This document shows positions 45,453 to 63,113 of a stretch of DNA of 64,000 bases, piece by piece (the first letter of the stretch is position 1; every line of letters starts with the position of its first letter). Source of the stretch: Intestinimonas butyriciproducens. GTDB taxonomy: Bacteria; Bacillota; Clostridia; Oscillospirales; Butyricicoccaceae. The stretch is taken from assembly GCF_016901775.1 (NCBI RefSeq), contig NZ_JACJKW010000006.1, positions 1-64,000 on the forward strand, in the 5' to 3' direction. A model generated the notes under the pieces. It worked only from the letters and a program-made list of their open reading frames with translations, did no database searches and was not told where the DNA came from. The position numbers and the translations under genes are program-made.

Positions 45453-45827
45453 TTAATAAATGCCCTTTCCAAACTCATAGGCCTGCCGAAGATAATCGGT
45501 CTCCCCGATCTGCGGTCTGCCATTGGTGCTGCCGCAGCCCCCTGCCAGCAGCATTCCCCTGTCCCGGAAACCGATATACCGCACCAGGGTAAACCGGTAA
45601 TAGGCCACGGCCTGCTCAAAGGTCCAGAAGAAATTGTCCGCAGAGGTCATGAGCAGGGCACAGTCCCGGAAGGGATATTTTTCATACCGGCCCATAGGCG
45701 GCTGCGGGTCCTCCTGGGCCAAGGAATAGAACCGCTCGATCACCGCTTTGAGCTGGGATGAGATGGTCCAGAAATACAAAGGTGATGCAAACACGATCAG
45801 ATCGGCTTCCAGCAGTCTGGGTACCAA
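45453..45827 (-). pseudogene. Flavodoxin-family / NADPH-dependent FMN reductase, 5' part removed by island insertion
   Basis: The surviving C-terminal 124 residues (LLEADLIVFASPLYFWTIS, YYRFTLVRYIGFRDRGMLLAGG, QIGETDYLRQAYEFGKGIY) are the second half of a flavodoxin-like FMN reductase. The N-terminal Rossmann segment with the FMN phosphate loop (usually GSPRKNGNT-like) is missing: homology stops at about 45821-45830, exactly where the serine recombinase gene begins. The rest should lie at the far junction of the island. The fragment is presumably non-functional. Confidence 0.8.
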
Positions 45828-47311
45828 CTGTCAAGGAAGTCCGGGCCATCATTCAAGATTTCCATCAGCTCTCTTGTTTGGGCGATGGTGTTGTCGCCAT
45901 CGACGGTCAGAAGACGCTCCTTTTTCAGCTTTACAGCGCGGAGCTGCTCGGTCAACTCATTGCTCTGGGATATAAAAATGTCAGGATCAATGAGGCCCTG
46001 TTGTTTCAGCGTGGCCAACATTTGATTCTGACTGGTAAGATCGGATATTTGCTTGTTGAGTTCAATGACATCCAGGCTCCAGAGCATCCGGCGGTTGCGG
46101 ATGGCTTGGAGCGAGGTGGCCATTCCCATGAGGATGGGTTCGCCATGGTGCTTGAGTTTATAGTATAGGCGGATGAAAGCATTTGTTATTTCATCTTCTG
46201 CAATTGGTGTAATGCCGCATTTGAGGTCATGTCTCTTTTTATCGTGTCCTATACATACCCAGTATGTGATGCCGCGCACAACCTTGCGACGAAATAGTGA
46301 CTGGCAGTCGCCGCATACTATCTTTTTTCGAAACGCATACGGACTGTTTTTCGTTAATGTAATCTTCTGCGCACGAAATTTCATCAAAGCATTTGCTTTC
46401 TCAAAATCTTCTTTTGATACAATTCCTTCATGTGTCCCGTGTGCATAGTAAGAAACCTTCTGCCCACGGTTTAGTCGGCACTTATAGGGAAGCGTATCTG
46501 TTGAGAAGTATTTTTGCCACACAGAATCGCCAATGTATTTTTCATTTGAGATGATATATCGAATTGCGGTCGAATCCCATGCAGCTTCGCCTGATTTACA
46601 TGGAACGCCTTCTTTTCGTAGGTCAGAAGCTATCCGCTCTGTACTCTTGCCGGAAAGATACTCTTGGAATATTCGTTGAACGATAGCGGCCTGTTCCTCC
46701 ACAATTTGTATGCAGCGGTCCTGTAGTGTATATCCATAAGGCAGCCTCGCAGGTATGTATGTTCCAGCCTGTATTCGTTTTTGAATTCCCCAGCGCATAT
46801 TACCGGAGATGGACTCGCTCTCTGCCTGGGCGAAGGATGCGAACAGTGCGGTCATCATTTCGCCGGACATGGTTGCGGTGTCGATGTTCTCTTTTTCGAA
46901 GCACACCCCAACCCCCAGCGATTTCAGCTCTCGAATCGTCTCCAGACATTCCTTGGTATTGCGGGCAAAGCGGGAGATGGACTTTACCAGCACTCGGTCG
47001 ATCAGACCTCTGCGGCAATCTGCCAAGAGCCGCTGGAAGTCTCCACGCTTCTCAGCCGATGTGCCGGTGATGCCCTCGTCGGCGTATATGTCCACCATGC
47101 TCCAATTTTCCTTGCTGGAGATCAGGATGGTGTAGTACGAATTCTGTGCGGCGAAGGAGTTGAGCTGGTCATCCGAGGCCAAACTGACACGGGCGTAGGC
47201 AGCGACCCGCAGTTTCACATCCTTTGGCTTTTCCGTGGCCTCAATGGTTATGACCCGATACTTTTTTTCCTGCAGTGCCATGCTGCCGTCCGTCATTCGC
47301 TTTTCTGCCAT
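45797..47311 (-). CDS. Large serine recombinase (integrase of the island)
   Basis: This 504-residue protein has an N-terminal resolvase domain (AAYARVS with catalytic Ser43, DIYADEGITGTSAEKRGDF, VKSISRFARNTKE), a recombinase domain (IPARLPYGY, STAIRYIISNEKYIGD), a zinc ribbon (CGDC, CIGH, CG; about residues 335-370) and a C-terminal coiled coil, as in TndX/TnpX integrases. Its last residues, SWYPDCWKPI, and stop are read through the junction into flavodoxin-gene DNA. The start follows GAAGGAGGTGAACTGAC. It would catalyse integration and, with a partner factor, excision. Confidence 0.92.
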   Translation of the reverse strand: MAEKRMTDGSMALQEKKYRVITIEATEKPKDVKLRVAAYARVSLASDDQLNSFAAQNSYYTILISSKENWSMVDIYADEGITGTSAEKRGDFQRLLADCRRGLIDRVLVKSISRFARNTKECLETIRELKSLGVGVCFEKENIDTATMSGEMMTALFASFAQAESESISGNMRWGIQKRIQAGTYIPARLPYGYTLQDRCIQIVEEQAAIVQRIFQEYLSGKSTERIASDLRKEGVPCKSGEAAWDSTAIRYIISNEKYIGDSVWQKYFSTDTLPYKCRLNRGQKVSYYAHGTHEGIVSKEDFEKANALMKFRAQKITLTKNSPYAFRKKIVCGDCQSLFRRKVVRGITYWVCIGHDKKRHDLKCGITPIAEDEITNAFIRLYYKLKHHGEPILMGMATSLQAIRNRRMLWSLDVIELNKQISDLTSQNQMLATLKQQGLIDPDIFISQSNELTEQLRAVKLKKERLLTVDGDNTIAQTRELMEILNDGPDFLDSWYPDCWKPI

Positions 47312-47414
47312 GTCAGTTCACCTCCTTCGGCAACACAAACAATACCACAACACCCTTGAAATAGCTATGGTAGAACGATACGGTCTGATACAATCCTCCC
47401 CTTTCTTTCATGAG

Positions 47415-47430
47415 GTTAGCTATGGCTAAC
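47415..47430. promoter_or_regulatory. Iron-box-like palindrome in the recombinase leader
   Basis: GTTAGC-TATG-GCTAAC is a perfect inverted repeat of the type repeated through the island. It lies about 104 bases before the recombinase start and downstream of the promoter at 47500-47530, so a bound regulator could block transcription of the recombinase. Confidence 0.65.
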
Positions 47431-47499
47431 TACTTTGCGAAAAAAGATGCGCAGCGGCGATTGGACTTACCATGCATCACGCACTGCGCATCGTGGGCT

Positions 47500-47530
47500 T
47501 ATTATAGCACATGGAGTTAGCCATGTGCAA
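47500..47530 (-). promoter_or_regulatory. Promoter with an operator in its spacer, upstream of the recombinase
   Basis: On the minus strand TTGCAC (47530-47525) and TATAAT (47506-47501) are 18 bases apart. A perfect inverted repeat GCACATGG/CCATGTGC (47507-47528) with an AGTTAG centre fills the spacer; that centre also contains one GTTAGC half-site. It is well placed to be a repressor target. Confidence 0.7.
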
Positions 47531-47573
47531 CCGCGCAAAAAGCACAAGCTACCAAGCGGAAAGAAATCTTTTT

Positions 47574-49688
47574 TTATCCATTCTGCAAATTGTTGCCCCG
47601 AGTGGACTGCGTCTGAGTAGTCAGCCGGCTCATGCTCCGCAGACTGACACCCAGAGTGGAGAGGTTGTGCAGCGTGGCGGAGGTGGCTGGCGGCAGGACT
47701 CCGGCTACGCCCAGAGCGATCAAAGCACCATTGAAGCCAATGACAAAACGATAATTGGAGTGGATGCGCGCCATTAGAGCCATGGCGATCTGGCGCAGCT
47801 CTACCAGTTCCCAGAGGCTGTCGGCGGCAATGGTGATGTCCGCGATTTCCCGGGCGATGGCGGCGCCGTCGCTGATGGCGATGCCCGCGTCCGCCTCGGA
47901 CAAGGCCGGCGAGTCGTTGATGCCGTCGCCCACCATCAGGACAGTATGCCCCTCCCGGCGGAGCCTTGCCACATACTCCGCCTTGTCCGCCGGCAGGACT
48001 CCGGCGCGGAAGTCATCCACTCCCACCTGGGCGGCAACGGCTGCGGCGGTGCGGTAACTGTCGCCGGTAAGCATGACGGTACTGGTGATCCCCAGGGCGC
48101 GGAGGGCGGACAGGACTTCCTTCGCCTCCTCCCGCAGCGGGTCGGAGATGCAGATCACGGCGGCCAGCTGTCCGCCTACGGCCAGATACAGGTGAGAATA
48201 TTCCGGCGGCAGGGCGTCAAAGCGTTCCTGTTCGCCCTCTGGAATGACGCAGCCCTCATCCTCAAAGACAAAGTGGGCGCTGCCGATGAGGACCTGCTCC
48301 CCATCGACGGTGCTGGCGATGCCGTGAGCCACCAGATACTCCACCTTGGAGTGGTACTCCTCGTGACGCAGGCCCCGGCGCTTCGCCTCCTCCACCACGG
48401 CGTTGGCCATGGAATGGGGGAAGTGCTCCTCCAGACAGGCAGCCAGCCGCAGCATTTCGGCTTCCTCCTTGGTGCCGAAAGATACCACCTGAGCCACCCG
48501 GGGGCAGGCGTGGGTCAGAGTGCCGGTCTTGTCGAAAACGATGGTGTCGGCGGCAGCCACCGCCTCCAGGAACTTGCCGCCCTTGACGGTGATATGGGCC
48601 CGTCCCGCCTCCCGCATGGCGGAGAGGACGGCCAGAGGCATGGCCAGCTTCAGTGCGCAGGAGAAGTCCACCATCAGCACCGACAGGGCCCGTGCCACAT
48701 TCCGGGTGAGGGCAAAGCTGATGAGGCTCCCGGCAAAGGTATAGGGCACCAGCTTGTCCGCCAGATTGGCGGCCTTGCTCTCAGCCTCCGACTTCATCTG
48801 CTCCGACTGCTCGATCATGTGAACGATCTGGTCATAGCGGCTCTGGCCGGAGGCTTGCTTCACTTCCAGCACACATTCGCCCTCCTCTACCACGGTGCCG
48901 GCATAGACCGCGCCTCCGGGGCGCTTGGGTACCGGGATGGATTCGCCGGTGAGGGACGCCTGATTGACAGTGACCTCCCCCTCCAGCACCAGGCCGTCCA
49001 CGGGGACGATGCCGCCGGCGCGGACGACTACCGCATCCCCCGGCTGGATCTGGGACACAGGGACCAGCACTTCGCCTTGGGCCGTGCGCAGCCAGACCCG
49101 ATCCACATTCAGCGACATACACCGGGCCAGATCCGCCACAGATTTCTTCCTTGTCCACTCCTCCAGCAGTTCACCTACCTCCAGCAGGAACATGACCATT
49201 CCGGCGGTTCCAAAGTCCCTTCTGCAGGCAGAAATGGAAATAGACAGGGCATCCAGCAGCTCCACCTTGATGCGGCGGCGCAGCAGGCAGTGCAGTCCTC
49301 GCCGTACAAAGGGGATCATGTGCCAGAGAATGCGGGCAATCCGCAATGGAGACGGGAGAAACAGGGTACAGGCAGCTTTGCACACTACCTTAGTTACCAG
49401 CTTCTCCTCAAATTCCCGGTTCAGCGCCCGGCTGCTGTGGGCGGGCAGCGCGGTGGTCCGCTCCGCCTCCTGCCAGGAAAAATGCCGAATTTCGTTCAGC
49501 ACGGCTTGGCGAGTCCCATCGTAGTACAGGATGACGCAGCAGGTTCGCTCATGGACGGTGACCTGCCGGCACCAGGACTTTCCCTGAATCCATGCCTCCA
49601 GCAGATCCGCCTGAGCGAGTGTCATCTGTTTTTGCCGCAGCCGGAACCGGATGCGCCCCCGGCTTTCGTGCAATATGGTTGCGTTCAT
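47574..49688 (-). CDS. Heavy-metal translocating P-type ATPase with atypical FSC motif
   Basis: This 704-residue P1B-type ATPase has an N-terminal HMA-like domain (SRGRIRFRL), the actuator TGES (about 248), the phosphorylation site DKTGT (about 386) and GDGINDSPAL. The usual transmembrane metal motif CPC or SPC reads FSC here (DFSCALKLAMP, about 341-351), lacking the conserved Pro, so the transported metal cannot be assigned by the normal rules; Fe, Mn or Zn export are candidates. The start ATG at 49688 follows GAAGGAGGAACCT. It follows the DUF6110 gene through an attenuator-like hairpin. Confidence 0.88.
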   Translation of the reverse strand: MNATILHESRGRIRFRLRQKQMTLAQADLLEAWIQGKSWCRQVTVHERTCCVILYYDGTRQAVLNEIRHFSWQEAERTTALPAHSSRALNREFEEKLVTKVVCKAACTLFLPSPLRIARILWHMIPFVRRGLHCLLRRRIKVELLDALSISISACRRDFGTAGMVMFLLEVGELLEEWTRKKSVADLARCMSLNVDRVWLRTAQGEVLVPVSQIQPGDAVVVRAGGIVPVDGLVLEGEVTVNQASLTGESIPVPKRPGGAVYAGTVVEEGECVLEVKQASGQSRYDQIVHMIEQSEQMKSEAESKAANLADKLVPYTFAGSLISFALTRNVARALSVLMVDFSCALKLAMPLAVLSAMREAGRAHITVKGGKFLEAVAAADTIVFDKTGTLTHACPRVAQVVSFGTKEEAEMLRLAACLEEHFPHSMANAVVEEAKRRGLRHEEYHSKVEYLVAHGIASTVDGEQVLIGSAHFVFEDEGCVIPEGEQERFDALPPEYSHLYLAVGGQLAAVICISDPLREEAKEVLSALRALGITSTVMLTGDSYRTAAAVAAQVGVDDFRAGVLPADKAEYVARLRREGHTVLMVGDGINDSPALSEADAGIAISDGAAIAREIADITIAADSLWELVELRQIAMALMARIHSNYRFVIGFNGALIALGVAGVLPPATSATLHNLSTLGVSLRSMSRLTTQTQSTRGNNLQNG

Positions 49689-49703
49689 AGGTTCCTCCTT
49701 CAC

Positions 49704-49733
49704 GAAAAGAGGGAGCCGCTGGCGGCTCCCTCT
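49704..49733 (-). terminator. Attenuator-like hairpin between DUF6110 and the ATPase gene
   Basis: AGAGGGAGCCGC and GCGGCTCCCTCT form a 12-base stem with a 2-base loop, followed on the minus strand by TTTTCG. It sits just after the DUF6110 stop and 15 bases before the ATPase start, and probably lowers ATPase expression relative to the small proteins upstream. Confidence 0.7.
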
Positions 49734-49740
49734 GGGTCAA

Positions 49741-50013
49741 TCAGGCTTCTTCGCTCTCCAGATTGGCAGCGGCGGCTTCCTCCGCTTCCTTTGCAGCCCG
49801 GTCCTCATTCAGCTCCTTGGCGGAGGCCAGAATGTCCGCGGCGTTTTCCTGCACCGTGGTCACAGTCCCCATGACCGAATCCTTCATCCGCAGGCCGGCG
49901 GCCGTGACATGGACATAGGCTTTCTTGGCGTCCTTGCTGGACAGCAGCTTGATGCCAAAAGAACCAAACAACGCACCACCCGCAAAGCAGGCCAGTTTCG
50001 TATAAACGCTCAT
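49741..50013 (-). CDS. DUF6110 family protein
   Basis: This 90-residue protein has one N-terminal hydrophobic helix with glycine motifs (CFAGGALFGSFGIKLLSSKDAKKAYVHVTA, split across residues 9-38), a middle helix and an Ala/Glu-rich acidic tail. DUF6110 proteins typically sit beside this type of P-type ATPase and are probably membrane-anchored partners; the mechanism is unknown. The start follows AAGGAAGGATCACA. Confidence 0.75.
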   Translation of the reverse strand: MSVYTKLACFAGGALFGSFGIKLLSSKDAKKAYVHVTAAGLRMKDSVMGTVTTVQENAADILASAKELNEDRAAKEAEEAAAANLESEEA

Positions 50014-52300: not shown

Positions 52301-52324
52301 TGTGGTTAGCAATAGCTAACCACA
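52301..52324. promoter_or_regulatory. Iron-box palindrome 1 in the DUF3793/dtxR intergenic region
   Basis: TGTGGTTAGC and GCTAACCACA are 10-base perfect arms around AATA, the best match in the island. It lies between the divergent DUF3793 and DtxR-type genes, close to a minus-strand TATATA, so it should control the DUF3793-flavodoxin transcript. Confidence 0.75.
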
Positions 52325-52349: not shown

Positions 52350-52371
52350 TTGGTTAGCGGTAGCCAACTAA
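52350..52371. promoter_or_regulatory. Iron-box palindrome 2 in the same intergenic region
   Basis: TTGGTTAGC and GCCAACTAA around GGTA match the complementary arm at 7 of 9 positions. The centre is 48 bases from the first box, so two regulator dimers could bind between the divergent genes. Confidence 0.6.
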
Positions 52372-52454
52372 TGCAATTATATACAGGGCAAATTCGCTTG
52401 TCAAGAGGACGGATGGATTTTGTTGACAGAAAAAAATGGCGCTTGTCGGACTCC

Positions 52455-52465
52455 TGTGTTATAAT
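52455..52465 (+). promoter_or_regulatory. Extended -10 promoter of the DtxR-type gene
   Basis: TGTGTTATAAT contains TG-T-TATAAT, an extended -10 element, about 31 bases before the start codon. A TTGACA at 52423-52428 is too far upstream (31-base spacer) to serve as its -35. Confidence 0.5.
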
Positions 52466-52495
52466 AAGCAAAACGCCCGTTTTTTGGAGGTTCCT

Positions 52496-52891
52496 ATGGC
52501 GATTCACGAGTCTGGCCAGATGTATCTGGAAACCATCTATATTCTTTCACAGAACAGCACCTTCGTTCGAGCTATCGATGTGGGAGCGCAGTTGGGCTTT
52601 ACCAAGCCCAGCGTCAGCAGAGCCATGTCCATTCTGAAAAAGGACGGATATGTGAATGTGGATGCTGACGGTGCGATCACCCTGACGGAGACCGGGCTTG
52701 CCATTGCTAAGACGATGTACACCCGCCACACGGTGTTGAGCCAGATGCTGATGGAATTAGGCGTGGACGAAGAGACTGCGACCGAAGATGCCTGCCGGAT
52801 CGAGCATGTGATCAGCGAAAAATCCTTTGCGGCGGTGCAGGCGCACTTGGAGCAGGTAATGAAAATGCGGGAAGATGCGCACGGGCAATGA
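52496..52891 (+). CDS. DtxR-family metalloregulator (iron-type ligand set)
   Basis: This 131-residue protein has the DtxR/MntR winged helix (VRAIDVGAQLGFTKPSVSRA) and dimerisation domain, with no SH3 domain. The predicted primary ligands are Met9 (QMYLETIY), Cys100, Glu103 and His104 (ACRIEHVIS), matching the DtxR/IdeR Met-Cys-Glu-His iron set rather than the MntR Glu at the Cys position. It should bind Fe(II) and repress through the GTTAGC boxes around it. The start follows TTTTGGAGGTTCCT; a longer frame upstream was rejected. Confidence 0.88.
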   Translation: MAIHESGQMYLETIYILSQNSTFVRAIDVGAQLGFTKPSVSRAMSILKKDGYVNVDADGAITLTETGLAIAKTMYTRHTVLSQMLMELGVDEETATEDACRIEHVISEKSFAAVQAHLEQVMKMREDAHGQ

Positions 52892-53519: not shown

Positions 53520-54206
53520 TCACTCCTTCTTGACTTTTGGATCATCGAGCTGCGCGGACCGGACGGCGGTCTGCCGTGCCGCGGTCCGTTCATCGGGGAT
53601 CTTCCTGGCCATCAGACAGCACAGCGGCGCCAACGAGCTTCCGAGAAGTGGATGGCGAACGATGGAATAGCCGCGCTCGGACAGGTAGGCCATCAGCTCC
53701 CCGGCAGTCCAGACATGATACACCCGAAAGCCTGAAAGCCCCATGAACCAGAGCCGGAGTCTGGCGCTTCGGCTTTTGCCCCAGACAAAGGTGGGGGCGA
53801 ACAGCCATCCCCCCGGCTTCAGAACCCGCCAGGCTTCCGCCAGAGCTTTTTCCGGGTGAGGCATGACATGGAGGGCGTTGGAGATCACCACCGCATCGAA
53901 GCTCTCCGGGCCGTAGGGCAGCTTGGTAGCGTCCTGGACGGAGAAATGGAGCCGGGACGAATGCACCTGCTTTTTGGCCTGACGGATCATTTCAGCTGAA
54001 AAGTCGGTTGCCTCCCAGCTCCGGACACATGGAGACAGCGGCACGGACAGCTGGCCTGTTCCGCAGGCCAACTCCAGCACATCCATGTCCCGTTTCAGAA
54101 AAGGGCGCATTGCTTTGCAGATCTGCTGATAGGTCGCCTGAGAGCGGCGCATGAAGCCGGCGTAATGCCGTGAAAACCGCTCCCAAAACTGCTTGTTGTC
54201 ATCCAT
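53520..54206 (-). CDS. Class I SAM-dependent methyltransferase (UbiE-like)
   Basis: This 228-residue enzyme has the SAM-binding motif VLELACGTGQLS (about residue 43), acidic ATDFSAEM, motif II-like DATKLPYGPESFDAVV and LKPGGWLFAPTF. The substrate is unknown; the UbiE/Coq5 type methylates C or O on small molecules. It is controlled by an iron-box at 54230-54245 and its own promoter, and heads an operon with the HMA pseudogene and a small membrane protein. In the mirror-image cassette at the window end the matching position is taken by an unrelated methyltransferase. Confidence 0.85.
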   Translation of the reverse strand: MDDNKQFWERFSRHYAGFMRRSQATYQQICKAMRPFLKRDMDVLELACGTGQLSVPLSPCVRSWEATDFSAEMIRQAKKQVHSSRLHFSVQDATKLPYGPESFDAVVISNALHVMPHPEKALAEAWRVLKPGGWLFAPTFVWGKSRSARLRLWFMGLSGFRVYHVWTAGELMAYLSERGYSIVRHPLLGSSLAPLCCLMARKIPDERTAARQTAVRSAQLDDPKVKKE

Positions 54207-54229: not shown

Positions 54230-54277
54230 GTTAGCGCCTGCTAACTACATCATACTCTTTGTCGCAAGAAATTGCAA
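54230..54277 (-). promoter_or_regulatory. Promoter and iron-box of the UbiE-like methyltransferase
   Basis: On the minus strand TTGCAA (54277-54272) and TATGAT (54254-54249) are 17 bases apart. The box GTTAGC-AGGC-GCTAAC (minus strand, 54245-54230) follows immediately, covering the start of transcription. A bound regulator would block initiation. Confidence 0.72.
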
Positions 54278-54390: not shown

Positions 54391-56130
54391 TTACCGGCAC
54401 CAACCGGTGGGATTGGAGCGGGCGGTGATGAAGCGGCGGTAAATGCCCTCCTCCGCCATCAGTGTGTCATGGTCGCCGGCCTGAACGATGCGCCCCTGGT
54501 CGATAACCAGGATCTCATCGGCGTGGCGGATGGTATTGAGTCGGTGGGCAATGACCAGCAGGGTCTTGCCCCGGCACAGTTGGGTGATGGCCTCCTGGAT
54601 GTAGCTCTCGTTGTCGGCGTCCACGCTGGCAGTGGCCTCATCCAGAATGACGATGGGCGCGTCCTTCAGAATGCAGCGGGCGATGGAGATCCGCTGCCGC
54701 TCTCCGCCGGACAGGCTGGCCCCGCCTTCCCCGATGACCGTGTCAAAGCCGTCGGGCAGTTCCATGATGAAGTCATAGCATCGGGCTTTTCTGGCCGCCT
54801 CATAGACCTCCTCCCGTGTGGCGTCTGTCCGTCCCATGGCGATGTTGTTGTAGACGGTATCCTGGAAGAGATAGACCCGCTGAAACACCATGGAGATCTG
54901 ATCCATCAGATCAGAGAGAGGAATATCGCGGATGTCCCTGCCCCGTACCAGGATCTGTCCCTGTTTGACATCCCAAAACCGGGAGAGCAGGTTGGCTACC
55001 GTACTCTTGCCGCCGCCGGAGGGCCCCACCAGGGCCAGCATCCGGTTTTTCTCCAGCGTGAAAGAGACATCATGCAGCACCTCTTTCTCCCCGTAGGCAA
55101 AGGTGACATTCCGGAACTCCACCTCCGGGGCACCGCCGGCTTTGGGTAAGGATTCCCGGCCCCGGTCGGGCAGCTCCGGCTGGGCCAGTACCGCCTCGAT
55201 CCGGTCCATGCAGGCGTTCATCACCGTCAGGCGGGTGGCCTGGCTGTAGAGCGCCTTCATGGGGCCGAAGAGGTCAAAGACGAAGAGCAGGACACCCAGC
55301 AGGAAGGTGATGGAGAGCTGCCCACGGCCATAGAGCCAGAGGGACAGGGGAATTATCAGCACCGAGCCCAGACCGCACACCAGATAGAGAGCCCGCATCC
55401 AGGGGGCCTGGCTTTCCTCGAACGCAATGCTGACCTTGCGGCTCCGGGCGAAATTCTCGGTGAGCTCCGCGGAACGCTCTCCCAGCAGATTGAAGGTCTT
55501 TGCGATGCCGATGCCCTCCACATAATCCAGCACTGCCCGCGTGAGAGCCTCGCTCTGCTCCTGTCGGACATCAGAGTGAGCCAGGGTGCTCCCCAGGGAA
55601 GCGCGGCCCAGCTGCCAAATGATCCCTACCACCGCCAGGGCGGCCAGTCCCAGCCAGGGATTCAGGAAGGCCAGCCACAGCACAAGAATGGCTTGGGCAA
55701 AGGTATAGCTCATCATGTTGGCAATGTCGTGCATACAGTTCTCCTCAATGAACACCATGTCGGTGGACAGAACGGAACTGATTTTGCCGATGTTGCCCTC
55801 TGTGAAATAGCCCATGGGCAGGCGGCGCAAATGCCGTCCCAGCTCCATGCGCAGATCGGCGAATACCATATAGCCCGCCGCGGCCTGGAGCCGGTCGGCG
55901 ATGTTCTGGCACAGGCACTCCAGCAGAACGCAGCCCACCGTGCCCACCGCCAGCCACAGGCACAGCCGTGCCGTCATGGTTCCCTGGAGAAAAGCGCTCA
56001 GGGCCAGGAAGGACAGACCGATGGGGGCCTTGGACAGCATGGCCTTCAGGAACGCAAAGACAAAGGCCAGCTTGATCCGCCCCTGATAGGGGCCGGATAC
56101 GGACAGGATTCGTTTCATCAGCGCGATCAT
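54391..56130 (-). CDS. ABC half-transporter (YbtQ-like), second of the left pair
   Basis: This 579-residue protein fuses a six-helix ABC exporter-fold membrane domain (about residues 15-310) to an ATPase domain: Walker A GPSGGGKST, signature LSGGERQR, Walker B IVILDEAT, H-loop IAHR. It overlaps its partner by 4 bases and should form a heterodimer with it. Paired half-transporters of this type import siderophore-iron (YbtPQ) in some bacteria and export drugs or peptides in others; the iron-box upstream favours a metallophore role. Direction of transport is not visible in sequence. Confidence 0.88.
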   Translation of the reverse strand: MIALMKRILSVSGPYQGRIKLAFVFAFLKAMLSKAPIGLSFLALSAFLQGTMTARLCLWLAVGTVGCVLLECLCQNIADRLQAAAGYMVFADLRMELGRHLRRLPMGYFTEGNIGKISSVLSTDMVFIEENCMHDIANMMSYTFAQAILVLWLAFLNPWLGLAALAVVGIIWQLGRASLGSTLAHSDVRQEQSEALTRAVLDYVEGIGIAKTFNLLGERSAELTENFARSRKVSIAFEESQAPWMRALYLVCGLGSVLIIPLSLWLYGRGQLSITFLLGVLLFVFDLFGPMKALYSQATRLTVMNACMDRIEAVLAQPELPDRGRESLPKAGGAPEVEFRNVTFAYGEKEVLHDVSFTLEKNRMLALVGPSGGGKSTVANLLSRFWDVKQGQILVRGRDIRDIPLSDLMDQISMVFQRVYLFQDTVYNNIAMGRTDATREEVYEAARKARCYDFIMELPDGFDTVIGEGGASLSGGERQRISIARCILKDAPIVILDEATASVDADNESYIQEAITQLCRGKTLLVIAHRLNTIRHADEILVIDQGRIVQAGDHDTLMAEEGIYRRFITARSNPTGWCR

Positions 56131-57923
56131 GCCTCGTCACCTCCTTTCTCCGCAGAGACACGCCAGGCAGCGGCTCCCTCGGCAGCCCGCCACAGTTTTT
56201 CATAGGCGGGGCAAGTCTTTCGCAATGTATCGTGGCGGCCGATCCCTGCCACATTGCCCTGGTCCAGCACCACGATCTGATCGGCGCCTGCAATGGACTG
56301 AAGCCGGTGGGCGATGACGATGACCGTCTTGCCCCGGATCACCTCGGCAATGGCGGCGTTCATTTTCTCCTCATTCTCCGGGTCCAAAAAAGCGGTGGCC
56401 TCATCCAGCACCACGATGGGAGCGTCCTTCAAAATCGCCCGGGCCAGGGCGATCCGCTGCCGCTCTCCGCCGGAAAGCCCCTTGCCTCCGTCACCGGCCA
56501 TGGTATAGATTCCTTTTTCCAGCCGTTTCAGAAACTCTCCGCATTGAGCCCGTTCCGCCGCCGCCAGCACCTCCTCGTCGGTGGCGCCGGGTCTTCCCAG
56601 CCGGATGTTCTCCAACAGGCTGGTGTTGAACAGGAACTGCTCCTGCGCCACGAAGGAGATCTGCTCATTCAGAGAGGCGAGGGACATCTCTCGCAGGTCT
56701 TGCCCCCCCAGCGTGATGCGTCCGTCGGTCACATCGTAAAAGTGGACCAGCAGCTTGGCAAGGGTCGATTTCCCGCTGCCGGATTCTCCCACCAAAGCAG
56801 TGAGGCTCCCCTGTGGGACAGAGAAGGAGATGCCGTGGAGGACTTCGTCCTTTTCGCGGCCCAGGCCGCCTTCTCTTCCGCCTTCGGCGGAATTCACCTT
56901 GTAAGAAAACCGCACATTCTCAAAGCGGATCTGCAAATCGTTTCCGTTGAACTCCGTTTTTCCTTCTTTCAGGGGCGGAATATTGAACAGAGATTCCATT
57001 TGGTCAATCTTGTAGCTCAGCTGGGGCAGCACCGACATAAAGTTCATGGCCCGGACCAAAGGCGGCCCCACGGAAAAGGACATGCACAATACCAGCGCGT
57101 AATCCGGCAAGGTGGAGGCGCCGGCGAGCACCAGATAGCCGCCGGCTGGCAGCAGCACCAGCGCCACGCAGGGCAAAATGCTGGTGTAGAGGGCCATCCA
57201 CAGCCAGCAGGCCCGGAACCAATCCAGAGTAAAATCCCGGTAGTTTTTTACATCGGTCTCAAAGCGGTGATAGGACTCTCCGTCCCGGTTGAAGACTTTC
57301 ACGACTTCCATGCCGTTGATGTACTCCACGATGGTGTTGTTCATTTTCTGCCCGGCGGCGTAGTAGTCCCCCATCTTGCTCATGCCGGAGCGGTACATCA
57401 TGCCCATGGCCAGCACGCCCAGGGGGAGGGAGCAGAGGGAAAGCAGACCAAGCTTCCAGTCCGTGAGGAACATAGCCGCAAATACCACCACCGGCACCGC
57501 CAGATTGGACAGCCCTTCCGGCAGGGCGTGGGCCAGCAGAAGTTCCATGCTCTCAATGTCGTCAATGAACATCTTCTTCCAGACTCCAACACCTTTCTCC
57601 TGGATTGCGCCCAGGGGCTGCTTTTCCAGTTTGCTCTGGAGATGGAGCCGGAGGTTTTCCAAAGTATGATAGGCGGAACGGTGGGACAGTGCCAGTCCCT
57701 CCACATAGAGAAGGCCGTAGAGGGCCATGCACAGAGCCATGGCCCCGGCGCTCGTCAGGGTTTCCTCCAATGTGAGACTGCCCCCAGTCAGCAGGGGTCT
57801 CAGCAGGCGGTAGAGGAAGAAATAGGGCAGCACGCTCATGGCCACGCCGGCCACCAGCACCAGAATGGAGGCGTAGGTGGTCTTCCGGTGGCGTCCAGTG
57901 TAGCGCAGGACTTTTTGAAACAC
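56127..57923 (-). CDS. ABC half-transporter (YbtP-like), first of the left pair
   Basis: This 598-residue protein has the same six-helix plus ATPase layout (Walker A GESGSGKST, LSGGERQR, IVVLDEATAF). A 15-residue Gly/Glu insertion (NSAEGGREGGLGREKD) lies just before the Walker A strand and is absent from the other three. The start is GTG, after AAAGGAGTGATACT. The iron-box at 57941-57956 lies directly before that ribosome site. Confidence 0.88.
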   Translation of the reverse strand: MFQKVLRYTGRHRKTTYASILVLVAGVAMSVLPYFFLYRLLRPLLTGGSLTLEETLTSAGAMALCMALYGLLYVEGLALSHRSAYHTLENLRLHLQSKLEKQPLGAIQEKGVGVWKKMFIDDIESMELLLAHALPEGLSNLAVPVVVFAAMFLTDWKLGLLSLCSLPLGVLAMGMMYRSGMSKMGDYYAAGQKMNNTIVEYINGMEVVKVFNRDGESYHRFETDVKNYRDFTLDWFRACWLWMALYTSILPCVALVLLPAGGYLVLAGASTLPDYALVLCMSFSVGPPLVRAMNFMSVLPQLSYKIDQMESLFNIPPLKEGKTEFNGNDLQIRFENVRFSYKVNSAEGGREGGLGREKDEVLHGISFSVPQGSLTALVGESGSGKSTLAKLLVHFYDVTDGRITLGGQDLREMSLASLNEQISFVAQEQFLFNTSLLENIRLGRPGATDEEVLAAAERAQCGEFLKRLEKGIYTMAGDGGKGLSGGERQRIALARAILKDAPIVVLDEATAFLDPENEEKMNAAIAEVIRGKTVIVIAHRLQSIAGADQIVVLDQGNVAGIGRHDTLRKTCPAYEKLWRAAEGAAAWRVSAEKGGDEA

Positions 57924-57940: not shown

Positions 57941-57956
57941 GTTAGTTATTGCTAAC
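57941..57956. promoter_or_regulatory. Iron-box in the leader of the left ABC operon
   Basis: On the minus strand GTTAGC-AATA-ACTAAC lies 8 bases before the ribosome site of the ABC gene. The 19-base stretch 57956-57938 is identical to 59453-59471 of the right cassette, so the leader was copied along with the genes. Confidence 0.72.
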
Positions 57957-59452: not shown

Positions 59453-59468
59453 GTTAGCAATAACTAAC
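59453..59468. promoter_or_regulatory. Iron-box in the leader of the right ABC operon
   Basis: GTTAGC-AATA-ACTAAC lies immediately before the ribosome site AAGGAGG of the ABC gene. The 19 bases 59453-59471 are identical to the left cassette's leader on the opposite strand. Confidence 0.72.
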
Positions 59469-59483
59469 TAAGGAGGCTTATTT

Positions 59484-61229
59484 ATGCGTCAAACGCAAAG
59501 CCCACTGCTGCGGTTGTGGCAGCTGGGCAAGGATCATCACGGTGGCCTGATTGCCGCCATCTTCTGCGCGGTGGCGGGTGTCCTGCTGGGTCTGCTGCCG
59601 TATCTCGCGGCAGGGCGTATCCTGGTAGCGCTTCTCACCGGGCAGCGGGACTGGAACTTCTATCTTCTGTGGTGCATGGTGGCCCTTGGTGGCTATCTGG
59701 CCAAAACCCTGCTTTACAATCTGGCGCTCTCCCTCTCCCACAAGGCCACCTTCCAGATCCTGCGGGACATCCGGAAGACGGTTCTGTCCAAAATGCCCCG
59801 CCTGCCTCTGGGAGACATTCTGGACACCTCCAGCGGACGGCTCAAACAGATCGTGGTAGATCAGGTGGAGAGTATGGAGACGACATTGGCCCACCTGCTG
59901 CCCGAAATGACCTCCAATCTGCTGGCGCCGGTATGCGTTCTGGTGTATCTGTTTACGCTGGACTGGCGCATGGCATTGCTGAGTCTGGTGTCCATTCCTG
60001 TGGGCATGGCTTTTATGATGGCCATCATGGGCAGCTATGGCAAGGACTATCAGGGTGCGGTGGAGACGACCCAGGCTATGAATGAGACCATTGTGGAGTA
60101 CATCGGCGGCATTGAGGTCATCAAGGCTTTCAATCAGGGAAAGAACTCCTATGAGAAGTTCTCCTCCCGGGTACGAGCCAATGCTGCCTACTACTACAAC
60201 TGGATGAAGAAATGCCAGTTTGGAATGGCGCTGGCCTATGCCATCGCTCCCACCACGCTTATTACGGTGCTGCCTGTGGGCTGGATCTTCTACACGGACG
60301 GCAGCTTGTCCGCAGAGGTATTTCTCACCACCATCATCCTGTCCATGAGCATTGTGGGACCTCTCATTGCCGCCATGGGCTTTGTGGATAATCTTGCCAA
60401 GGTAGGGACCATCGTAGGTTCGGTGGACGAGATCCTCCTGAAGCCGGAGCAGGATCACGGAACACAGCCGGCACAGCTGGGAAGACCGGATATCGCCTTG
60501 GATCATGTCTCCTTTGGGTATGCCCAGGACAAGGAGATCCTCCACAACATCTCCCTCACCATTCCGGCCGGCAGCCTCACCGCTTTGGTTGGTCCCTCCG
60601 GTTCGGGCAAGTCCACCATTGCCAAGCTCATCGCCGGTTTCTGGGATGTGACCGAGGGCCGCATTACCCTGGGCGGCGTGGAGGAAAGCCGTATCCCGCT
60701 CAAGCAACTCTATGACCAGGTGGCCTTTGTTTCTCAGGACAATTACCTCTTTGACGATACCATCCGGGAAAACATCCGCATGGGCCGGGTAAATGCCACG
60801 GATCAAGAAGTGGAACAAGTCGCCAAAGCCGCCGGATGCGACGGCTTCATCCGCCAGTTGGAGCATAGCTATGACACCCGGGTGGGCGGCGGAGGCGCCC
60901 ATCTCTCCGGAGGAGAGCGGCAGCGTATCTCCATCGCCCGGGCTATGCTGAAAAACGCCCCCGTGGTGATTCTGGACGAGGCCACCGCCTACATTGATCC
61001 GGAGAATGAAGCAGTGGTCCAGCGGGCAGTGGCAAAACTGGTGGAGGGTAAGACGGTCATCGTCATTGCCCACCGCCTGTCCACCATCACCGGCGCGGAT
61101 CAGATCGTGGTGGTGAAGGATGGAAGCATCGAGGCGCAGGGCAGGCATGAAGACCTGCTGCGCCATTGTCCGTTGTACGCCGATCTGTGGCAGGCTCACA
61201 TGGGCGCAAAGGAGGGAGAAACGGTATGA
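59484..61229 (+). CDS. ABC half-transporter (YbtP-like), first of the right pair
   Basis: This 581-residue protein has a six-helix membrane domain and an ATPase domain with Walker A GPSGSGKST, signature LSGGERQR, Walker B VVILDEATAY and H-loop IAHR. It aligns with the 56127 gene in organisation (EYIGGIEVIKAFNQ against EYINGMEVVKVFNR). The start follows AAGGAGGCTTATTT. It overlaps its partner by 4 bases. Confidence 0.88.
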   Translation: MRQTQSPLLRLWQLGKDHHGGLIAAIFCAVAGVLLGLLPYLAAGRILVALLTGQRDWNFYLLWCMVALGGYLAKTLLYNLALSLSHKATFQILRDIRKTVLSKMPRLPLGDILDTSSGRLKQIVVDQVESMETTLAHLLPEMTSNLLAPVCVLVYLFTLDWRMALLSLVSIPVGMAFMMAIMGSYGKDYQGAVETTQAMNETIVEYIGGIEVIKAFNQGKNSYEKFSSRVRANAAYYYNWMKKCQFGMALAYAIAPTTLITVLPVGWIFYTDGSLSAEVFLTTIILSMSIVGPLIAAMGFVDNLAKVGTIVGSVDEILLKPEQDHGTQPAQLGRPDIALDHVSFGYAQDKEILHNISLTIPAGSLTALVGPSGSGKSTIAKLIAGFWDVTEGRITLGGVEESRIPLKQLYDQVAFVSQDNYLFDDTIRENIRMGRVNATDQEVEQVAKAAGCDGFIRQLEHSYDTRVGGGGAHLSGGERQRISIARAMLKNAPVVILDEATAYIDPENEAVVQRAVAKLVEGKTVIVIAHRLSTITGADQIVVVKDGSIEAQGRHEDLLRHCPLYADLWQAHMGAKEGETV

Positions 61230-62956
61230 TCGAGACATTCAGAGGTATCTGGCGGTTTGCCGGTGAGGAACAGCGCAACATCCGGCGCTCGGTGATCGCC
61301 TGCTTTTTGGGTGCGGTGTTCCATATGTTTGAGATCGCCGCCATTTACTACACCATCCTGGCTCTGCTGGATGGAAAGACCGGCCCTGCCACGGCGTGGC
61401 AGGCGCTGGGCCTGTTGGCAGTCAGTATTCTGGGCAGCGCCGTGACCAGATATTTCTCCCAGCTTGAGCAGACCCACGCCGGGTACTTCATGGCGGCAAA
61501 TAAGCGCGTTGTCATCGGGCAGCGGATGAAATCCGTCCCCATGGGCTACTTCAACGACAACAGCCTGGGAGAGCTCACCGGGGTCTGCACCACCGTGCTG
61601 GACAATGTGGAGTCTGTGGCTCCTATGGTACTGGTGACCATGTTGGGCGGGCTGCTCAACGCTCTGGTCTTTACGGTGATGATCCTGATTTTTGACTGGC
61701 GGATCGGTCTTATTGTGGTGGCGACCACAGCAGTTTATTTGTTCATCACCTCCGCCATGGAGCAAAAATCCGCCGCCCTCGCCCCGCACCGTCAGAAGTC
61801 CGAGGCCAAGCTGGTGGAGGCGGTACTGGAGTATGTGCAGGGCATGAGCGTGGTGAAGTCCTTCAACCTCACCGGACGGGGTGACCGCACCTTGCAGGAA
61901 GCACTGGAATACAACTGCCGCAGCAACCTGAACATCGAAAAGATGTTCACCCCTTATATTATGGCGCAGGGGATCGCGCTCCAGCTGGGAAGCGTGGCCA
62001 TGATGCTTGCGGCGGTATGGTTCTATCTCTCCGGAACGATGATTCTGGCCAACGCTCTGATGGTGGTCATCATGTCCTTCCTGGTCTTTGCTCAGATCTC
62101 CTCGGCGGGCAGCGGCATGTCCCTGCTGCGTATCGTCAGCAGCTGCATGGCCCATGCCGATGAGACGGACGCCATGCCCCAGCTGGCAGAGACCGGTCGG
62201 GCCGGCACGCCCAGGGAGCACAGCATTACCTTCGACCATGTTTCGTTCTCTTATGACCAGCGGCCTATCCTGCGGGATGTATCCTTCGCCATCCCGGACA
62301 GAACCACCACCGCCATCGTGGGCCCCAGCGGTTCCGGGAAAACCACACTGTGTAATCTCATCGCCCGGTTCTGGGATGTGGAGAGCGGCGCCGTCCTGGT
62401 GGGCGGTCAGAATGTAAAGGACTATACTCTGGAGGACCTGATGGATCAGATCTCCATGGTATTTCAGAAGGTCTATCTCTTTGCCGACACGGTGGAAAAC
62501 AACATCAAGTTTGGACGCCCCAATGCCACCCACGAGGAAGTGGTGGCTGCGGCGAAGAAAGCCTGTTGCCACGACTTCATTCTCACCCTGCCCCAAGGCT
62601 ATAACACCGTCATCGGCGAGGGTGGTTCCAGCCTTTCCGGCGGCGAGAAGCAGCGCATCTCCATTGCTCGGGCTATCCTGAAGGATGCTCCCATCGTGAT
62701 TCTGGATGAAGCCACCGCCAATGTAGACCCGGAGAATGAGGACCGGTTGCAAAAGGCCATTGAAGCCCTGACTCGGAACAAGACCATTCTGATGATCGCT
62801 CACCGGCTGAAGACGGTCCGCAACGCCGACCAGATCCTGGTGCTGGACGGCGGACAGATCGTTCAGCGGGGCACCCACAGCCAGCTCATGGCCCAGGAGG
62901 GCCTGTATCAAGCGTTCGTATCCGGCCGTAAAGAGTCCGGCCAGTGGAAGCTCTAA
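61226..62956 (+). CDS. ABC half-transporter (YbtQ-like), second of the right pair
   Basis: This 576-residue protein has the same layout: Walker A GPSGSGKTT, signature LSGGEKQR, Walker B IVILDEATAN. It parallels the 54391 gene (EYVQGMSVVKSFNLTG against DYVEGIGIAKTFNLLG; DLMDQISMVFQKVYLF against DLMDQISMVFQRVYLF). The ATG at 61226 lies in the ATGA overlap after GCAAAGGAGGGAGAAACGGT; a longer upstream frame was rejected. It should pair with the 59484 product. Confidence 0.88.
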   Translation: MIETFRGIWRFAGEEQRNIRRSVIACFLGAVFHMFEIAAIYYTILALLDGKTGPATAWQALGLLAVSILGSAVTRYFSQLEQTHAGYFMAANKRVVIGQRMKSVPMGYFNDNSLGELTGVCTTVLDNVESVAPMVLVTMLGGLLNALVFTVMILIFDWRIGLIVVATTAVYLFITSAMEQKSAALAPHRQKSEAKLVEAVLEYVQGMSVVKSFNLTGRGDRTLQEALEYNCRSNLNIEKMFTPYIMAQGIALQLGSVAMMLAAVWFYLSGTMILANALMVVIMSFLVFAQISSAGSGMSLLRIVSSCMAHADETDAMPQLAETGRAGTPREHSITFDHVSFSYDQRPILRDVSFAIPDRTTTAIVGPSGSGKTTLCNLIARFWDVESGAVLVGGQNVKDYTLEDLMDQISMVFQKVYLFADTVENNIKFGRPNATHEEVVAAAKKACCHDFILTLPQGYNTVIGEGGSSLSGGEKQRISIARAILKDAPIVILDEATANVDPENEDRLQKAIEALTRNKTILMIAHRLKTVRNADQILVLDGGQIVQRGTHSQLMAQEGLYQAFVSGRKESGQWKL

Positions 62957-63084: not shown

Positions 63085-63113
63085 TTGACTGGTTAGCATT
63101 TGCTAACTATAAT
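63085..63113 (+). promoter_or_regulatory. Methyltransferase promoter with the iron-box in its spacer
   Basis: TTGACT (63085-63090) and TATAAT (63108-63113) are 17 bases apart. The spacer is almost wholly the box GTTAGC-ATTT-GCTAAC (63092-63107), so regulator and RNA polymerase cannot bind together. This is the clearest evidence that the box is a DNA operator. Confidence 0.85.

Follow-up and report, generated by a model that had tools for sequence, protein, structure and literature searches.

Comparison with other genomes indicates that the box and promoter lying in front of a large serine recombinase gene in the window (the whole stretch of 64,000 nucleotides analysed here) are a control region left behind by an iron-transport operon. 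According to the reading that we prefer, with a probability of roughly 0.85, positions 47365-47573 hold an intact fec leader whose operon was cut after eight codons and joined through the letters ATAG to an internal fragment of the first serine recombinase gene of an element; a metal-dependent repressor and a hairpin would govern this leader, a mechanism that we infer. Sequence comparison established what the leader is, that its layout recurs, that the recombinase is truncated and that both junctions are present in the assembly. The coordinates of the features are collected in Table 1.

Table 1. Features of the fec leader, the recombinase fragment and the surrounding box-bearing region in the window.
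Feature	Position	Strand	Remarks
Flavoprotein gene, 3' part	45453-45827	-	lacks about the first 70 residues; intact homologues (L112, L114) have 196 aa
Large serine recombinase	45797-47311	-	has Resolvase, Recombinase and zinc-ribbon domains; in relatives the first of three genes in a module
Recombinase's own upstream DNA	47312-47368	-	candidate extended -10 at 47347-47339, Shine-Dalgarno at 47326-47321
Junction ATAG	47365-47368	-	common to fecCD and the sequence native to the recombinase's upstream side
First 8 codons of fecCD	47365-47389	-	ATC at the likely start (47389-47387); same as G072 down to 47365
Shine-Dalgarno GGGGAGG of the fecCD remnant	47401-47395	-	
Operator 2, perfect box GTTAGCTATGGCTAAC	47415-47430	-	0 mismatches to GTTAGCN4GCTAAC
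Terminator-like hairpin followed by T6	47440-47492	-	-28.3 kcal/mol, z -4.14
Promoter TTGCAC-N18-TATAAT, formerly of the fec operon	47501-47530	-	read by eye; like layout in 22/37 fec loci (see text)
Operator 1, degenerate site GTTGCACATGGCTAAC	47516-47531	-	3 mismatches to GTTAGCN4GCTAAC; overlaps the -35 and the spacer
Heavy-metal P-type ATPase	47574-49703	-	upstream of the leader
Two boxes between the regulator and a DUF3793 gene	52305-52320 and 52353-52368		just upstream of the regulator
DtxR/MntR-family regulator	52436-52891	+	one candidate reader of the boxes
Box before a methyltransferase gene (53520-54206)	54230-54245		
Box before an ABC transporter gene (56127-57923)	57941-57956		
Box before an ABC transporter gene (59484-61229)	59453-59468		
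Box past an ABC transporter gene ending at 62956	63092-63107		

A search of 99 genomes with 47300-47575 returned matches in four, the window's own genome included. In one of them (G072) the identity to the window spans the ATPase gene and the leader and ends at 47365, and over the leader 207 of 209 positions are identical, with two differences. There the leader opens an operon for FecCD, a second FecCD, an ABC ATPase and a periplasmic binding protein, which together would form a ferric-siderophore-type ABC transporter. The fecCD frame of the window keeps eight codons and ends at ATAG, where recombinase DNA starts, and no intact fecCD stands behind a leader in the window's genome. Neither the rest of fecCD nor the second permease was found in that genome; an empty search result of this kind proves little by itself. 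The original prediction had regarded the signals as the leader of the recombinase, an assignment that fails, because recombinase-family DNA begins only at ATAG and the leader in G072 precedes fecCD. The sole other fecCD match in the window's genome is on contig C16 and is itself cut, at about residue 176. This remnant (G000:C16:18533-19057, L035) has kept its leader and is fused to a Cthe_2159 carbohydrate-binding domain; a fecCD cut at about residue 126 in another genome (G177:C179:63954-64328, L067) has likewise kept its leader.

The promoter was confirmed by reading on the minus strand, with the hexamers TTGCAC at 47530-47525 and TATAAT at 47506-47501, and a promoter scan returned an overlapping version of it, TGCACA-17-TATAAT, with a 10/12 match. 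Between the promoter and operator 2, and absent from the original prediction, is a GC-rich hairpin followed by a run of T's on the coding strand, as in an intrinsic terminator, which begins a few bases from the expected transcription start. Short reading frames inside the hairpin, seen by eye and without a Shine-Dalgarno sequence, make a candidate leader peptide. The loop motif GTAAGTCC(A/G)AT is common to the hairpins of the window (47438-47500), L051 and L060 despite their differing stems, and may be a putative binding site. We considered whether the hairpin could be the terminator of the upstream ATPase gene and excluded this, since it sits downstream of the promoter and is also present in G058, where no ATPase was seen on the contig. 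With Rfam at gathering thresholds no match was found in the 45-64 kb part of the window. The P-type ATPase next to a DUF6110 protein (47574-50013) appears to resemble the ferrosome pair FezB/FezA. A review describes FezA and FezB in C. difficile.

The palindrome proposed for the promoter spacer (47507-47528) does have 8-bp arms (GCACATGG/CCATGTGC), but its 6-nt centre is not palindromic, so that it is not perfect, and the exact arms recur in only 1 of 37 fec leaders, the near-identical copy of G072. As an operator by itself it was rejected for the latter reason. The GTTAGC half-site described in the spacer is present as well; judged by the sequences it fits better as the right half of the degenerate full operator GTTGCACATGGCTAAC, in place of which relatives show GTTGCCTATGGCTAAC and similar sequences over the -35.

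How far this layout recurs was assessed with fecCD homologues from two overlapping searches (E <=1e-60), which gave hits in 25 of 394 genomes of the order and in 19 of 250 genomes of G072's family and combined to 37 loci; three of these (L068, L108 and L109, with 38-39% identity and no box) are retained in counts of 37 and dropped from counts of 34. An equivalent of operator 2 (<=2 mismatches) was found at -63 to -86 from the reference codon in 31/37 loci and is absent in 6/37, compared with 0/37 in the reversed control. An upstream operator (<=3 mismatches) at -190 to -100 was seen in 23/37 loci (reversed control 1/37). Thirteen of the 23 begin with GTTG, with the left half over the -35, and ten do not; several loci have an ordinary box as their upstream operator, and the layout is not uniform. 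The order GTTG..CTAAC followed by a -10 occurs in 22/37 loci when weaker sites are included, a pattern that was devised after the sequences had been seen and is given without a control. A hairpin of -8 kcal/mol or better plus a T-run stands just before operator 2 in 24/34 leaders, where 3.3 were expected from 20 shuffles of each, and no such hairpin was found in 10/34. Such a hairpin is present in half or more of the members in 13 of the 18 sequence clusters, between which the stem sequences vary. A covariance model built from 14 similar sequences (the window and 13 of the 34 leaders) gave eight strong matches in 295 genomes (E <1e-7), all of them in fecCD-bearing genomes, together with weaker matches at E 1.6e-6 to 0.01; the fecCD genomes G019, G034, G043 and G047 of the same sample gave no match. 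Covariation is thin, with two-sided change in 3 of 11 pairs. A literature search, thin on subscription papers, found no description of such a fec leader.

The start of fecCD is unusual too. Ten codons before the reference codon, at the likely start, the 34 loci (L028, L045-L067, L069, L100-L107 and L110) have ATC in 18 cases, ATA in 4, ATG in 7 and other codons in 5. Among the 22 loci with ATC or ATA, ten have no in-frame ATG, GTG or TTG upstream as far as the preceding stop and 12 have one, which is very close in two: a GTG directly before in L059 and an ATG two codons before in L058. ATC/ATA is thus a recurring candidate for a non-standard start codon at this position.

The window holds seven sites with at most one mismatch to the box, all between 47415 and 63107, whereas the average over 100 dinucleotide shuffles was 0.02 and the maximum 1. 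The full iron-type box of the original prediction is one of them and, as operator 2, matches perfectly. Perfect boxes occur at eight places in the genome, four of them in the window; at <=2 mismatches the genome counts are uninformative (49 vs 43 in the reversed control). Because this set is far above chance and two boxes lie just upstream of a DtxR/MntR-family gene, metal-dependent transcription across the region appears plausible. Control by an iron sensor, as originally proposed, is tenable to that extent, but with seven DtxR-like matches in the genome the 52436 protein is one candidate binder among several. Its top NCBIfam matches are MntR models, below the cut-off, and a metal other than iron is therefore possible. 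Of the 30 regulator loci that matched best, 8 have boxes in the 400 bp upstream and 22 have none; the reversed control gave 0/30. Several of the DtxR-like matches of the window's genome share contigs with boxes.

Taking the leader as the control region of a fec operon, we propose that a metal-loaded DtxR-type repressor would occupy both operators, the first lying over the -35 and the second about 65-80 bp past the expected transcription start, and would prevent initiation and probably also elongation. Under metal shortage the repressor would leave and RNA would be made from the TATAAT promoter, part of it ending at the hairpin and T-run before the downstream gene is reached. The place of that gene is taken in the window by the recombinase fragment, whose transcription may therefore respond to metal, perhaps by accident.

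Alternatively, the promoter and hairpin could give rise to an independent small RNA, about 55-60 nt long and regulated by iron, with operator 2 serving a second promoter. Several observations fit: the hairpin starts near the expected transcription start, the stretch from the -10 to T6 is identical to G072 at 69/69 positions while third codon positions of the ATPase differ at 95/710, and the leader persists where fecCD is cut (in the window, on C16 and in G177). IsrR of staphylococci is an iron-repressed small RNA with two Fur boxes (PMC9410917). One intergenic stretch differs from G072 at 16 of 168 positions; the 37-nt gap between the DUF6110 and ATPase genes is also identical, so that the leader is not the sole unchanged stretch. 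A free RNA is made doubtful by the covariance model, whose eight strong matches all fall in fecCD genomes and never apart from fec and which misses the four fecCD genomes named above, by stems that differ between clusters, and by truncations that may be recent. A broader proposal, which we put forward as speculative and rate slightly lower still, is a conserved device with three locks, in which two metal-repressor operators surround an intrinsic terminator ahead of a non-standard ATC/ATA start, and the part with promoter and hairpin makes a short RNA under metal regulation, retained even where the transporter is lost, as in the window.

On its other side the leader meets a recombinase that is itself broken. 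Aligned with four full-length relatives, the gene is cut short at about residue 494 of about 535, so that about 40 C-terminal residues are missing; six of seven close relatives have 533-535 residues and the frame of the seventh, L006, is broken. The recombinase frame runs into the flavoprotein gene, with the junction somewhere in 45813-45830. In relatives such as L001-L004 the first recombinase gene is followed by two more; both are absent in the window, which thus has one truncated gene in place of three adjacent ones. The seven close relatives (L001-L006 and L020) match the window only from ATAGCTATT on, which is present in 7/7, while GTTGTGGTATTGTTTGTG is found in 5/7. The candidate extended -10, TGG-TATTGT, is identical in 5/7 and, lying nearer the gene, could drive the recombinase if it acts as a promoter; a promoter nearer the gene is what the original prediction had itself named as counting against it. 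The relatives' DNA stays conserved farther upstream, up to a point that varies from -580 to about -1256 (L002 and L020 have gaps), and this DNA is absent in the window; hence the ATAG junction is internal to the recombinase module. The conserved part includes a small gene in 7/7 relatives and an HTH gene in L003, L004, L006 and L020. A small conserved protein before the recombinase was considered and rejected; an open frame exists, and its end differs among the relatives. At <=1 mismatch no box was found anywhere in the seven closest recombinase loci. Among the 52 related loci, 49 have at least 300 nt of DNA upstream, and in none of these does that stretch contain a box at <=2 mismatches; the other three have less DNA. 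In a scan of all 52, L019 alone had 2-mismatch sites, one about 1.7 kb upstream and one beyond the gene. In plasmid and phage collections the recombinase had partial matches only (1 and 8 records), all of them spanning less than 80% of the query. Other recombinases of low identity in the window's genome do not belong to this element; they include four serine recombinase matches in a row (G000:C9:61536-67336), with 28-30% identity, as a separate mobile-element module.

The ATAG overlap could instead mark site-specific insertion of a three-integrase element into fecCD at an ATAG target, followed by deletion of most of the element and of the rest of fecCD. One gene is indeed disrupted here and a second is truncated on the other side, and a report on streptococcal integrative and conjugative elements (ICEs) with triplet serine integrases states that these enter genes and leave repeats of 2-8 bp (PMC4701971), compared with the 4-bp overlap in the window. 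The relatives' conserved DNA directly upstream of their first recombinase, with its small gene and HTH gene, means that ATAG is not at the end of the element in these loci, and the overlap was seen at one junction, with no second copy of an attachment site found. We therefore consider this order of events unlikely.

Both junctions come from a single assembly, and an error of sequencing or assembly could explain them: three gene fragments are fused within 2 kb, and each junction was seen once, with no second copy found by exact letters in viral contigs. An overlap of 4 bp is, however, too short for an assembler to join reads by sequence overlap, and fecCD truncated with its leader kept is seen twice more, on C16 and in G177, at other positions, so that an artefact appears improbable. 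Least credible by far is a functional element in which iron switches excision or transfer through operators in the recombinase leader: the box and promoter are real, on the same strand as and upstream of a recombinase whose 504-aa frame is open and includes the catalytic domain, but the leader is that of fecCD, the recombinase is cut short and without its relatives' partner genes, 49 related recombinase loci have no box in the 300 nt in front, the junction lies inside the recombinase module and, a weak point if taken alone, the rest of fecCD and the second permease were not found in the genome.

Taken together, the stranded fec leader leaves an ordinary link to the recombinase, that of a captured promoter before a broken gene. 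The tie between excision or transfer and metal starvation drawn in the original prediction was attractive but is not supported, and an operator before a recombinase can be a stranded remnant. The fec leader, to which the mechanism proposed above applies, is the more interesting object: it turns up repeatedly in the iron-transport operons of this order, with a terminator enclosed by two operators and with an unusual start codon.

Several known systems share parts of this arrangement. The streptococcal ICE triplets (PMC4701971) are like the loci of the relatives of the window recombinase, where the corresponding gene is likewise the first of three adjacent recombinase genes; the window has the truncated first gene only, and the likeness noted here is one of gene arrangement. 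DtxR/IdeR operators of corynebacteria (PMC524172) have, as here, a GTTAG/CTAAC half-site core before iron-uptake genes, with DtxR-family genes nearby. The sites listed in that report are 19 bp long with halves about 1 nt apart, e.g. TTAGGTTAGCCAAACCTTT, whereas the palindromic halves here are 6 nt apart (GTTAG-CNNNNG-CTAAC), both in the window and in the operator of 31/37 fec loci. YtgR, a DtxR-like repressor, binds downstream of a promoter in the Chlamydia trpRBA intergenic region and inhibits readthrough (PMC7755916), as we propose for operator 2; this is another operon in another organism, where the operator also serves an alternative promoter, and two operators around a hairpin, as in the fec leader, are not described in the part of that report we refer to. 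Staphylococcal IsrR (PMC9410917) resembles the leader in its rho-independent terminator and its two iron-repressor boxes, of which the first lies in the promoter and the second past the start; there the repressor is Fur and the product a free small RNA of 174 nt, whereas here the site is of the DtxR type and belongs to the leader of a transporter operon.
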